IMG/VR virus record: IMGVR_UViG_3300032282_001316
Location: 1-31,978 of that record
Length of the DNA: 31,978 nucleotides
Source: a virus
Strand: one strand, 5' to 3'
The notes beneath the pieces are model-generated. The model saw nothing but the letters and a program-made list of their open reading frames with translations. It had not been told where the DNA came from and ran no database searches. Positions 8,515 to 23,199 of this stretch are shown here, in pieces. The position numbers and the translations under genes were made by a program. The first letter of the stretch is position 1. Each line of letters starts with the position of its first letter.

Positions 8515-8551
8515 GATGAAGAAAAACCCGAATAAAATAAATTTAAAAAAG

Positions 8552-9244
8552 ATGAGTAAAGTAAAAGTATTAGAATTATTCGCTGGAAGTAGATCAATAG
8601 GAAATACAGCTGAAGAATTAGGAATGGAAGTTTTCTCAGTAGATTGGACACCATACGAAAAAATAGATTTAGCAATTGACATTGAAGAACTGCAAAAAGA
8701 ACAAATTCCATTTATTCCTAATATTGTTTGGGCTTCTCCTGATTGTACGACTTATTCAATTGCAGCAGTTTCTAAACACAGAAGAAATAGGACTGAACCA
8801 GTAAGCGAATACGCAGTTAAATGTGATAATGTAAATCAACATTGGATTGGAGTGATTAAGGAATACTTAAAGGTGAATCCTGACCTAGTTTTCTTTATTG
8901 AAAATCCTCGTGGAATGCTTCGACACATGCCTTGGATGAAAGATTTTAAAAGGCATACTGTTTGGTATTGCAAGTATGGTGATGACAGAGCAAAACCAAC
9001 AGATATTTGGACTAATTCAAAAACTTGGACACCAAGACCAGAATGTTGCAATTACAAGTATGATTGTGATGGTAATATCATAAATAAACATTGCCACCAT
9101 GAAAGTGCAAGAAGAGGTGCAAGAACAGGAACGCAAGGTAAAAAAGATAGTTACAATAGATCAAAGATTCCAAAAGAACTATGTTTAGAAATATTACAGA
9201 GTTATTCACACGTTGGTATTCAAGGCAACGAAGCGAAATCTTAA
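8552..9244 (+). CDS. C5-cytosine DNA methylase-like protein
   Basis: 230 aa from ATG 8552; an in-frame ATG at 8516 adds 12 residues but abuts the upstream palindrome. Motif I is LELFAGSRSIGN (7-18, S-adenosylmethionine site), motif IV SPDCTTYS (62-69) with Cys65 as nucleophile, and the motif VI position reads ENPRG (117-121) where classical enzymes have ENV. Motif VIII (QxRxR) is not clear; KPTDIWTN is present instead, typical of a short phage group. Probably protects phage DNA from host restriction; no restriction enzyme gene is nearby. A changed specificity or chemistry is possible. A 9-bp inverted repeat (8508-8516, 9260-9268) flanks the gene. Confidence 0.7.
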   Translation: MSKVKVLELFAGSRSIGNTAEELGMEVFSVDWTPYEKIDLAIDIEELQKEQIPFIPNIVWASPDCTTYSIAAVSKHRRNRTEPVSEYAVKCDNVNQHWIGVIKEYLKVNPDLVFFIENPRGMLRHMPWMKDFKRHTVWYCKYGDDRAKPTDIWTNSKTWTPRPECCNYKYDCDGNIINKHCHHESARRGARTGTQGKKDSYNRSKIPKELCLEILQSYSHVGIQGNEAKS

Positions 9245-17139: not shown

Positions 17140-17817
17140 ATGAAAATATTAAACTTATATGCCTGTTTAGGTGGTAATCGTTTTAAGTGGGATGAAGTCG
17201 CAAAAGAAGCAGGGATTGAAATAGAAGTAACGTCAGTTGAATTAGACACTGAAGCAGCAAGATTATACCAAGAAAGATTTCCAAACGATAGGGTAATTGT
17301 AGCGGATGCACATCAATACCTATTAGAAAACTTTAAAGAGTTTGATTTCATTTGGAGTTCGCCACCTTGTCCAACGCATTCAAGAGCAAGATATTGGAAT
17401 AGTTCAAACTATGATACTACTACAGAAGCAGTTTATCCAGATATGATGTTGTATCAAGAAATATTATTTTTACAGCATTATTATAAACACGGAAAATTTG
17501 TAGTTGAAAATGTAATACCATACTATGAGCCATTAATACACGCACAAAAACGAGGAAGGCATTTGTACTGGACCAACTTTAATTTGCCGAATGATTTAAA
17601 TGATAGAAGATTTGCAATCTCAGCAAAACAAGAGTTAAAAGGTTTATGTGATTTTCATAATTACGACTTTACAAAATATGAAGGCAAACAATCTGTTTTA
17701 AAAATGGCTCGTAATTTGGTTGACTATGAAGCAGGAAAAACGATACTTGAAACTGCTTTAAGAATAATTAAAAAGAAAGATATAAAACAAACTTCAATAT
17801 TTGATTATGAGATGTAA
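17140..17817 (+). CDS. C5-cytosine DNA methyltransferase
   Basis: 225 aa, short for the family. Motif I LNLYACLGGN (4-13), motif IV SSPPCPTHS (73-81) with Cys77 as nucleophile, motif VI VVENV (121-125), motif VIII QKRGR (136-140) are all intact; the target-recognition region is compact. Should transfer a methyl group from S-adenosylmethionine to cytosine in phage DNA, most likely against host restriction. No cognate nuclease. Differs clearly from the methylase-like protein at 8552. Ends within the start of NinG. Confidence 0.85.
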   Translation: MKILNLYACLGGNRFKWDEVAKEAGIEIEVTSVELDTEAARLYQERFPNDRVIVADAHQYLLENFKEFDFIWSSPPCPTHSRARYWNSSNYDTTTEAVYPDMMLYQEILFLQHYYKHGKFVVENVIPYYEPLIHAQKRGRHLYWTNFNLPNDLNDRRFAISAKQELKGLCDFHNYDFTKYEGKQSVLKMARNLVDYEAGKTILETALRIIKKKDIKQTSIFDYEM

Positions 17818-20200: not shown

Positions 20201-20473
20201 ATGGCGGGAAGAGGAGGAGCAATTCCAGGAAATGGTAGAAAGAGCAAAGCAGATGAAGAAAAAGTAAATACTTTATTTGCTAATGCCTTAAAAACATTCT
20301 ATAAAGTAGATACTGAATTTGAAGCAAAAGAAAAATTAGTTCATACATTATTAGAAAGTCAAAGAGGTCAAATATTTATTAGTGAACATCTATTTGGCAA
20401 ACCAAAAGAAACAGTAGACAATAATATTACTTTAAACGATATTAATATTAAAGAGCTTGTTAAGTTTAAATAA
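20201..20473 (+). CDS. Terminase small subunit
   Basis: 90 aa. Starts MAGRGGAIPGNGRKSKADEE, the Gly-rich pattern seen in small terminases of this type, followed by a helical core and SQRGQIFISEHLFGKPKE (53-70). It would bind phage DNA and bring the large subunit to the packaging site. Shorter than many (140 aa or more), without an obvious extra helix-turn-helix. Overlaps the large subunit by 17 bases. Confidence 0.75.
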   Translation: MAGRGGAIPGNGRKSKADEEKVNTLFANALKTFYKVDTEFEAKEKLVHTLLESQRGQIFISEHLFGKPKETVDNNITLNDINIKELVKFK

Positions 20474-22472
20474 GAAGTACATCCCACTATTTGCGAATGA
20501 TTCACGTTACTATGTAATTACGGGTGGTCGAGGTAGTGGGAAATCATTTGGTTTAACCGTATTTTTAGAGCTTCTAACGTACGAAGTAGGACACGTAATA
20601 CTATTTACTAGATATACTTTAACGTCTGCTCACGTTTCAATTATTCCAGAGTTCATAGAAAAGATTGAGTTAGCAGGATTGCAAAACGATTTCTATATTA
20701 CAAAGGATGAGATTATAAATATTAAGACGGGTTCAAAGATATTGTTTAGAGGTATCAAAACAAGTAGTGGAAATCAAACTGCAAATCTTAAATCATTGTC
20801 AGGAGTTACGACTTGGGTACTAGATGAAGCAGAGGAATTAACAGATGAAGATGTATTTGATAAGATTGATTTGTCTATTCGTAGTCAATCAAAACAGAAT
20901 AGAGTTATATTAGTCTTAAATCCTGCAACGAAAGAGCATTTTATTTATCAAAAGTTCTTTGAAGCAAAAGGAGTTGAAGCGGGAAGCAATATTGAAAAAG
21001 GCGACACAACGTTTATTCATACGACTTATGAGGATAATATCGAAAACCTATCAGAAAGTTTCTTAAATCAAATAAAAGACGTAAAGAAACGCAGACCTGA
21101 AAAATATAAACATACTATTTTGGGAGGTTGGTTAGATAAAGCAGAGGGCGTTATCTTCACTAACTGGAGAATAGGCGAGTTTAAAGAAGTTAGTCCAAGT
21201 ATATTTGGGCAAGATTTTGGATTTAGCAACGATCCGACAACGTTAATCGAAACATCTATTGATAGCGCTAATAAAATTATCTACGTAAAACTACATATTT
21301 ATCAAACGCACTTAACTACTTCACAAGTGTACGAACTTAACAAAACATTTGCTAATGATTCATTGATAATTGCTGATTGTGCAGAGCCTAGATTGATAAA
21401 CGAATTACAAGATAGGGGATTGAATATTGAACCTGCAGTAAAGGGAGCGGATTCAGTTCGATTTGGTATTGCATTAATTCAAGATTACGATTTAATAATA
21501 GATGAAAGCAGCATTGATTTAATCAAAGAATTAAATAACTATTGTTGGTTAGAAAAGAAGTCAGAAACTCCGATTGATAAATATAACCACTGCTTTGTAG
21601 GAGAAACAATGATAACAACAAATAAAGGAAATGTTAGAATAGACTCTATAAAAGTTGGTGATTATGTTTTAACAAGTGAGGGATATAAAAAAGTGTTGAA
21701 AACTTTTAATAACGGATTAAAACAAGTTAATAACTACTCGATGCACTTCGATACTTTTTCTTTATCTTTGTGTTCAACAAAAGAGCATAAGATAAAAACC
21801 AATAAAGAATGGAAGAAAGTATCAGAGTTACAGAAAGACAATGTGTTATACCAATACAAATATTCAACGAAAAGGAATATAAATTGTATGATAGTGAAAG
21901 ATATTTTAGTAGAGGCCAAAAGAAACTACATGTTGAAGTGTGGAAGTATTACAAAGGCAGTATACCAAAAGGGTATCATATACACCACGTTGACGGTAAT
22001 ACCCACAATAACAACATTGAAAACCTTAACCTTATTAATGGAAGTTTGCACCTTAGGTATGAAGGTAAAAAAAGGTTTAAAGAAAATCCTGAGTTTGCGA
22101 AATCCTTTCACGCAAAAGGAATTGAAAAAGCAAAAGAGTGGCACAAGTCAGAAGATGGAAGAGAGTGGCATAGACAACACGGTAAACAATTGTGGATTAA
22201 TAAACAGATGTTTAAAAAGAATTGTACGGTATGCGGAAAAGTATACGAAACTCCATTCCCAACAAGAAGTAAATACTGTCATCAAAACTGCAAAGCTAAA
22301 GCACTTAGAAGTAGGAGAAAGTTATCAAGCGAACGTTTATGATATTATGGTAGAAGATTGTCATGAATATTTTGCAAATGGTATATTAGTACACAATTGC
22401 CTAGATGCTTTACGTTATGCGGTTACTTATCAGATAAACGAAAACCAAAATAGCTTGCCATTCATTCGATAA
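20457..22472 (+). CDS. Terminase large subunit interrupted by an intein
   Basis: 671 aa precursor; TTG start at 20457, since no ATG occurs before the conserved region. N-extein 1-378: Walker A GGRGSGKS (23-30), Walker B TTWVLDEAEE (118-127), nuclease Asp253 (GQDFG) and Asp307 (IADCAE). Intein 379-647. C-extein 648-671 begins CLDALRYAVTYQ, giving the third nuclease Asp two residues after the splice point. The spliced enzyme would be 402 aa: the ATPase motor and nuclease that packages phage DNA. Splicing is needed for the nuclease centre, so the intein must work. An HNH gene is nested in another frame. Confidence 0.9.
   Translation: MLSLNKKYIPLFANDSRYYVITGGRGSGKSFGLTVFLELLTYEVGHVILFTRYTLTSAHVSIIPEFIEKIELAGLQNDFYITKDEIINIKTGSKILFRGIKTSSGNQTANLKSLSGVTTWVLDEAEELTDEDVFDKIDLSIRSQSKQNRVILVLNPATKEHFIYQKFFEAKGVEAGSNIEKGDTTFIHTTYEDNIENLSESFLNQIKDVKKRRPEKYKHTILGGWLDKAEGVIFTNWRIGEFKEVSPSIFGQDFGFSNDPTTLIETSIDSANKIIYVKLHIYQTHLTTSQVYELNKTFANDSLIIADCAEPRLINELQDRGLNIEPAVKGADSVRFGIALIQDYDLIIDESSIDLIKELNNYCWLEKKSETPIDKYNHCFVGETMITTNKGNVRIDSIKVGDYVLTSEGYKKVLKTFNNGLKQVNNYSMHFDTFSLSLCSTKEHKIKTNKEWKKVSELQKDNVLYQYKYSTKRNINCMIVKDILVEAKRNYMLKCGSITKAVYQKGIIYTTLTVIPTITTLKTLTLLMEVCTLGMKVKKGLKKILSLRNPFTQKELKKQKSGTSQKMEESGIDNTVNNCGLINRCLKRIVRYAEKYTKLHSQQEVNTVIKTAKLKHLEVGESYQANVYDIMVEDCHEYFANGILVHNCLDALRYAVTYQINENQNSLPFIR
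21591..22397 (+). mobile_element. Intein in the terminase large subunit (269 aa)
   Basis: Starts with Cys1 (CFVGETMITTNKG, block A). Block B is STKEHKI with Thr63 and His66. The C-terminal blocks are VYDIMVEDCHEYFANGILVHN, ending His-Asn, followed by Cys as first C-extein residue. All splicing residues are present. Residues about 85-240 in this frame look like unstructured Thr/Lys/Leu-rich linker, because that DNA encodes an HNH nuclease in another frame. The insertion point, NH|CLDALRYA, is the conserved nuclease motif of terminase, a classic site for inteins. Confidence 0.92.
21809..22342 (+). CDS. HNH homing endonuclease nested out of frame in the intein
   Basis: 177 aa from ATG 21809, in the -1 frame relative to the terminase-intein frame. 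Residues about 20-85 carry KKLHVEVWKYYKGSIPKGYH, then HIHHVDGN and NNNIENLNLINGSLHLR: the HNH core (His59/His60, Asn, His81). A C-terminal zinc finger has Cys139, Cys142, Cys157 and Cys161. It should cut intein-free terminase genes so that repair copies the intein. Stops at 21788 and 21803 close this frame just upstream, so it starts on its own ATG or by frameshift; no clear slippery heptamer was found. The first 20 residues may be dispensable. Confidence 0.85.
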   Translation: MEESIRVTERQCVIPIQIFNEKEYKLYDSERYFSRGQKKLHVEVWKYYKGSIPKGYHIHHVDGNTHNNNIENLNLINGSLHLRYEGKKRFKENPEFAKSFHAKGIEKAKEWHKSEDGREWHRQHGKQLWINKQMFKKNCTVCGKVYETPFPTRSKYCHQNCKAKALRSRRKLSSERL

Positions 22473-22473
22473 T

Positions 22474-22495
22474 ACAAATAATAAAAATAAACGTT
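22474..22495 (+). promoter_or_regulatory. Candidate late promoter upstream of the tail genes
   Basis: ACA 22474-22476, 13 bases, AACGTT 22490-22495, then ATG 22504 eight bases later. It occupies the only gap between terminase and the tail block. Confidence 0.5.
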
Positions 22496-22503
22496 TTAAC
22501 ATT

Positions 22504-23199
22504 ATGAAATTAGAGTTAATTATTCCCGAAAGTTTGAATGAAGTTCCATTACTTCACTATCAACAATTTGTTGACGATGTGAAAGGAAGTGAAGACGAAG
22601 ATTATATAGGGCAAAGATTAGTAGAAAGGTTTTGTGGCATTGAATTAAAAGAAATAGTTAAGATAAAGCAAAAGGATATACTTAACCTTACAAATCATTT
22701 TAACACTTTATTTAAAGCAAAGAATATATTTAAACCTAGATTTAAGATTCAAGGAGTTGAATTTGGTTTTATAACCGATTTAGAGAACATTACAAGTGGA
22801 GAGTATATTGATTTAGAAAAGTACTTACAAGATGTTAACACGCTTCATAAAGCTATGGCAGTAATGTATAGACCAATAGTTAAGGAAAAGGGAGATAAAT
22901 ACGAAATAGAGCCTTATCAAAGTGCTTTGAACTATGCCGAAGTAATGCAATATGCTCCACTTTCAATTGTACTTGCTGCACAGGTTTTTTTTTGGACTTT
23001 AGGACAACAATTGTTGAAAGCTATTCCTACCTTTTTGGAGAGGGAAATGAAGAAGATGAGCAAGAAACAACAAGCGACTTTAGCGGAGCAACTCAATTCG
23101 CAAAACAATGGGGATGGTATACAAGCATATATGAACTCGCTCAAGGGGATGTTAGAAGATTCGATGAAGTTACACGACTTTCCATTCATCAATGCTTAA
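22504..23199 (+). CDS. Tail assembly chaperone, short form (gpG-like)
   Basis: 231 aa, helical and charged, read to the in-frame stop. Position directly before tail genes and a slippery T-run with an overlapping -1 frame are the marks of the lambda G / G-T chaperone system, which holds the tape measure protein during tail assembly. Residues about 150-175 (AQVFFWTLGQQLLKAIPTF) lie after the slip point. Most translation should give this form. Confidence 0.65.
   Translation: MKLELIIPESLNEVPLLHYQQFVDDVKGSEDEDYIGQRLVERFCGIELKEIVKIKQKDILNLTNHFNTLFKAKNIFKPRFKIQGVEFGFITDLENITSGEYIDLEKYLQDVNTLHKAMAVMYRPIVKEKGDKYEIEPYQSALNYAEVMQYAPLSIVLAAQVFFWTLGQQLLKAIPTFLEREMKKMSKKQQATLAEQLNSQNNGDGIQAYMNSLKGMLEDSMKLHDFPFINA
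22985..22994 (+). other. Programmed -1 frameshift site
   Basis: Nine T then G. In the upstream frame the codons are GTT TTT TTT TGG, so the heptamer T TTT TTT allows both tRNAs to re-pair after a one-base back-slip. Both frames are open for about 200 bases afterwards. Confidence 0.7.

Follow-up and report, generated by a model that had tools for sequence, protein, structure and literature searches.

Inteins are taught as one polypeptide in which the endonuclease is nested in frame, and the gene analysed here raises the question of whether one stretch of an essential terminase gene can instead encode an intein in one frame and a nuclease in another. The sequence is IMG/VR virus record IMGVR_UViG_3300032282_001316, the whole 31,978-nt contig of which is referred to as the window. 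Its terL frame (20457-22472, + strand) is a single continuous reading frame of 671 codons with matches to Terminase_3, Terminase_3C and Intein_splicing (Pfam) and also to TIGR01443 (intein C-terminus). A preliminary description had reported that this frame stays open across a 269-codon intein with intact splicing blocks and that positions 21809-22342 encode a complete HNH nuclease with a zinc finger in the -1 frame. Both readings were confirmed, with coordinates and frames exactly as described (Table 1), the nuclease by a PF13392 match above cut-off and a four-Cys ribbon. Elsewhere in the window, two ORFs (8516-9244 and 17140-17817) resemble DNA cytosine methyltransferases by eye.

Table 1 Features of the terL locus, in window coordinates
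Feature	Position	Strand	Description
terL N-extein	20457..21590	+	378 aa; ATPase and most of RNase-H-like nuclease domain; Terminase_3, Terminase_3C, phrog_2
Intein, whole	21591-22397	+	269 aa, from Cys1 through Asn269; next residue is the +1 Cys
Intein N-terminal splicing block	21591..21860	+	Cys1; block B TxxH = T63, H66; Intein_splicing (Pfam); pLDDT 86-97
Intein-frame linker	21861..22280	+	HNH gene read through; zero stops; pLDDT <50 nearly throughout residues 91-229
Intein C-terminal splicing block	22287..22397	+	Terminal His-Asn; TIGR01443
terL C-extein	22398..22472	+	Starts at +1 Cys (CLDALRY...); 24 aa and stop
HNH_3 endonuclease ORF	21809..22342	+	177 aa, -1 frame; PF13392; phrog_15471; pLDDT 89.5; codon wobble in HNH frame
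TAA closing HNH frame upstream	21803..21805	+	Just 5' of HNH start; ORF opens 3 nt before ATG
HNH start ATG	21809..21811	+	Last A of intein codon GAA (E73) and TG of TGG (W74)
HNH C-terminal four-Cys zinc ribbon	22223..22291	+	C139, C142, C157, C161; invariant in HNH alignments

The intein frame has the sequence features of a class-1 intein, including Cys1, the block B TxxH, a final His-Asn pair and a +1 Cys nucleophile. Intein_splicing scored above the Pfam cut-off with the intein alone as query, and alignments of intein relatives showed C1, T63 and H66 to be invariant, together with V249, D251, H258, E259, L266, V267, H268 and N269 in the C-terminal splicing block. AlphaFold modelled the Hint halves at pLDDT about 86-97 and residues 91-229 with low confidence, and in Foldseek the Hint model matched the Mtu RecA and gp41-1 inteins (2imz and 6qaz, probability 1.00). 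On its motifs and structural model, the element qualifies as a class-1 intein that is predicted to splice. It is inserted in the TerL C-terminal nuclease domain, just before a D-A-x-R-Y motif, and the TerL proteins that carry it belong to different Pfam types.

Canonical intein endonucleases are in-frame domains flanked by blocks B and F, but this HNH is read in the -1 frame. Its HNH_3 match (PF13392) scored 47.8 bits against a Pfam cut-off of 24.8, residues H41, H60, N68, N72 and H81 were invariant in the alignment of relatives, and the HNH profile found I-HmuI (PDB 1u3e, E=3.6e-4). The HNH reading gave a confident AlphaFold model (Table 1), and the same DNA read in the intein frame gave an unfolded linker. 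Because Foldseek searches with the HNH model returned only weak PDB matches, the placement of this family rests on sequence.

Could the second frame be open by chance, or be an artefact? With the HNH protein held fixed and codons sampled from the phage's own usage, 6.9 stops were expected in the intein frame and the probability of none was about 10^-5; in the reverse case, holding the intein-frame residues constant, an open HNH frame had a probability of about 2x10^-9. Across 92 loci, which include near-duplicates (50 groups at 90% DNA identity), no intein-frame stops were observed compared to 766 expected. These values bear out the earlier view that such an opening is unlikely to be fortuitous. 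An RNA intron with an ORF can be practically discounted, since phage group I introns frequently carry HNH ORFs but here the host frame is open throughout, with conserved Hint splicing blocks, and an Rfam search of positions 20400-22600 at E<=0.5 returned no match and no group I ribozyme core. The preliminary description had itself raised a different alternative, in which two compensating indels in the assembly mask an in-frame HNH. Within one contig these would yield an identical picture, but the gapless layout recurs in dozens of independent, divergent assemblies and in the GenBank genomes TJE1, Highwayman and LS06-2018-MD07, and the switching of wobble positions described below is consistent across relatives, leaving this explanation with a negligible probability. 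As more than 100 other distinct phage sequences share the layout, it is genuine and of long standing, not the product of sequencing errors.

The distribution of the layout was obtained from three kinds of search. Using the TerL protein against viral contigs, we found nine other contigs with an identical gapless layout. Separate HNH-led searches, a check that the preliminary description had proposed, imposed no selection for frame (a single HNH; a diverse HNH alignment, with viral and cellular contigs) and recovered strong matches at 186 loci, or 138 after dereplication. The HNH was -1 to the open intein frame at 128 of the 186 loci (92 of 138 dereplicated, or 93 with locus L222, assigned by reading) and +1 at 25 (13 dereplicated); a split terL intein with the HNH between its halves was found at 14 loci (14 dereplicated), and the relatives at 18 (18 dereplicated) were free-standing or unassigned. 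An 'in-frame' flag at L265 was rejected, the HNH there being a separate ORF within a split terL. Finally, a search with the intein blocks, which was ranked by whole-intein similarity and may favour intact elements, gave an HNH in the -1 frame for 78 of 80 loci, the other two being a mini-intein and a locus cut by a contig end. The mini-intein (L332, 3001-3414) is a 138-aa member of the same family that lacks the HNH and may be either a remnant left after homing or a form that predates invasion. No in-frame relative was found in the searches by HNH, TerL or intein blocks, and none of the 138 representatives from the HNH-led searches had the HNH in frame. The preliminary description would have been overturned if homologues had carried the HNH in frame and the present layout had been absent from all of them; the result was the opposite. 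The out-of-frame layout is the rule for the window's intein family, in both the -1 and +1 registers.

GenBank examples of the layout include MT838676, OP947163, OZ038341 and HQ225832. For TJE1, Highwayman and LS06-2018-MD07, the GenBank entries record terL alone and miss the HNH gene, and a clear HNH ORF without public annotation is also present at L083, L084, L085 and L267 (OP947163, OZ038341, HQ225832 and ON529862). Cellular contigs with relatives include those of Bacteroides, Desulfovibrio, Patescibacteria and one archaeal MAG. One terL ORF (L137, 2-3259) seemingly contains two inteins, the start-proximal one with an in-frame LAGLIDADG-like region and the end-proximal one with an out-of-frame HNH. 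The terL of OQ791282 (Shigella phage Henu10) matches the query as well as those of Riemerella phages do, and this record may be mislabelled.

Selection differed between the two frames. Among 29 distinct -1-class inteins, change was fastest at the intein third position up to nt ~250, at the HNH third position from intein nt ~252 to ~700 and at the intein third position again thereafter, and the +1 class showed the same wobble switch in the other register. For pairs saturated at HNH third positions, linker identity was 0.319 compared to 0.315 expected on the assumption that only HNH residues, codon make-up and the absence of stops matter; this comparison revealed no hidden amino-acid selection on the linker. 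The wobble switch and the agreement of linker identity with expectation indicate selection on the amino acids of the HNH but, in the linker, on nothing more than an open frame, and the AlphaFold results agree, with the Hint halves and the HNH reading confident and the linker not. The proposal that two overlapping genes are selected together is supported by the wobble switching and the absence of stops. Its two parts, that the terL frame avoids stops and that HNH amino acids are kept, both stand, with the refinement that the constraint is asymmetric and leaves the linker residues free.

How, then, is the nuclease translated? Its ATG in the -1 class straddles two intein codons, the A being the last base of one and the TG the first two bases of the next, which encodes a conserved Trp. 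An A precedes the Trp codon in 33 of 33 representatives of this class with the Trp (18 GGA, 9 GAA, 3 TCA, 2 AAA and 1 ACA). The product of codon-usage probabilities for the start was log10 P = -13.2 for the -1 class and about 10^-2.7 for the +1 class, values calculated from related sequences and thus from trials that are not independent. These codon choices indicate that the HNH start is kept by synonymous choice. Most representatives have an HNH-frame stop 0-18 nt 5' of the ATG. In distant relatives, 32 of the 102 candidate starts follow a Shine-Dalgarno core, compared to 9.7% of control triplets (for example, ataaaggaggatatatt-ATG at L206). None of 37 starts in the window's close relatives had one, which is expected if their hosts do not use Shine-Dalgarno sites; Bacteroidota use such sites little.

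Programmed -1 (or +1) ribosomal frameshifting would instead produce a TerL-IntN-HNH fusion and no free nuclease. The overlap of the frames and a switch point near the end of the N splicing block would suit it, but an HNH reached in this way would have a slippery site and no start of its own, whereas the observed ATG is conserved, with a stop just upstream; both registers occur, and no canonical slippery heptamer was seen by eye between 21809 and 21880. Frameshifting is therefore very unlikely, and the kept ATG, the nearby stop and the Shine-Dalgarno enrichment in distant relatives favour internal initiation.

Evidence on mobility came from intein-free terL alleles (L011-L018), which have 87-90% DNA identity around the site and no insert. 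They encode Ala where intein alleles have the +1 Cys, so that the Cys codon either moves along with the element or is favoured by selection once insertion has taken place. An HNH_3 profile with conserved His/Asn, and the absence of the element from similar alleles, are the marks of an HNH_3 homing endonuclease, and both were observed here. The presence/absence pattern could also be due to loss or ordinary recombination rather than homing by the window's HNH. At one of the intein-free loci (L013, 633-1055), an HNH match lies upstream of terL without any intein block. HK97-type phages encode HNH proteins beside terminases, and the HNH might similarly serve DNA packaging, given its location within terL and the free-standing relatives that adjoin terL or terS (PAE1, SN1, an Exiguobacterium phage and BP10). 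However, the close relatives L011-L018 have the same terL without the HNH, the family is HNH_3, with a profile that finds I-HmuI, and the element is located exactly at an intein insertion site and has an HNH-less mini-intein (L332) as a relative. We consider a packaging role unlikely.

Taken as a whole, the locus is very probably a class-1 intein overlapped by a second gene, translated independently, for its homing endonuclease. What the sequences show is the double open frame, two-frame selection, the conserved start, the intact splicing motifs, the presence/absence polymorphism and wide conservation. The endonuclease would be a separate HNH gene overprinted in the -1 frame on the intein linker and not a domain of the intein. 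Ribosomes on terL would make a TerL-intein-TerL precursor, in which the Hint halves would fold around the disordered linker; splicing would then yield a 402-aa TerL with Cys instead of Ala at the junction. Other ribosomes would initiate at the conserved ATG in the same mRNA and make the free nuclease, as suggested by start-codon and Shine-Dalgarno conservation. The nuclease would cut intein-free terL, and repair would copy the element together with its +1 Cys, a step to which the empty alleles point. The cost that this model must accept is a long, apparently useless linker made at every terL translation.

Several known systems resemble parts of this arrangement. Fractured genes, reportedly described by Dassa et al. 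in 2009, are said to be split inteins whose two halves flank a free homing endonuclease. As in these, intein and endonuclease are separate proteins from one locus, and 14 HNH relatives lie in a terL split into two ORFs, but in the window, where terL is one 671-codon frame, and in most relatives the host gene is continuous and overlaps the endonuclease gene. I-HmuI (1u3e) is a phage mobile-element nuclease with profile similarity, but it is intron-encoded, whereas the window's HNH family adds a C-terminal zinc ribbon and resides in or beside terL. Mycobacteriophage TerL inteins also interrupt the large terminase, but all seven sites are in the ATPase domain, and the endonucleases assayed and aligned for BAKA and Bethlehem are LAGLIDADG domains (Kelley et al. 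2016, PMC5050341); the window's site is in the nuclease domain and its HNH is out of frame. The ShiLan insertion is an out-of-frame HNH with zinc fingers in a phage methylase whose frame stays open (Arsenault, Gosselin and Gogarten 2025, PMC11855218). It resembles the present element in these features, in its patchy distribution and in the internal initiation proposed for it, but its host gene is a non-essential methylase, and its authors detected no splicing domains in it, nor evidence that it belongs to any known kind of intein (PMC11855218). By contrast, the window's intein has invariant splicing blocks in the host frame, and its host gene is terL. For overlapping frames in actinobacteriophages, the ShiLan paper cites a preprint on non-canonical actinophage intein architecture (Gosselin, Arsenault and Gogarten 2025, doi 10.1101/2025.01.02.630785, known here through that citation in PMC11855218), which may describe related intein layouts. 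Among the papers that our literature search covered, none described an intein with intact splicing blocks on which an endonuclease is overprinted; in view of this preprint, priority is uncertain.

Free-standing HNH relatives adjoin terL or terS in phages of Pseudomonas, Sphaerotilus, Exiguobacterium, Brevundimonas and Acinetobacter, and the split-intein form occurs, for example, in the isolates Lactobacillus phage CL2 and Vibrio phage 1.238.A, where the annotations read 'hint domain protein' and 'hedgehog/hint domain protein'. The loci with the HNH gene between the parts of a split terL are L265 (455-2771), L270 (158-3886), L183, L184, L197, L198, L209 and L210, and further L233, L237, L240, L242, L246 and L247. 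In a Flavobacteriales sequence (L262, 1325-3756), a ribonucleotide reductase-like gene has an intein N block at its end and continues into another ORF, which matches the HNH more weakly; the arrangement resembles a fractured gene. These states are mixed on the HNH tree, which was built with FastTree only, and well-supported branches force at least 3 changes for +1 and at least 4 for split, counts that are soft because many other branches are weak. It is plausible that fused and split forms interconvert via gain or loss of linker stops. By analogy to introns, for which collaborative homing has been proposed (as cited in PMC10448857), a free-standing endonuclease targeting terL may plausibly have joined an intein at the same site.

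The window's intein departs from textbook in-frame nesting, and its nuclease gene is of a kind overlooked by annotation. Some 450 bases of an essential gene form a well-measured asymmetric overlap, with one frame selected for sequence and the other for openness alone. Because one nuclease occurs at one site in free-standing, split and overprinted form, the origin of endonuclease-bearing inteins becomes testable. We lean, by a little, towards the view that this terminase-intein family, found in phages of Bacteroidota, Proteobacteria, Actinobacteria and other groups, invariably has its HNH out of frame, whichever the register, and that this arrangement originated repeatedly, from split inteins and from free-standing HNH genes next to terL. 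If this is true, overprinting would be a stable, repeatedly chosen route by which one essential gene yields two separate proteins, an intein and a nuclease.
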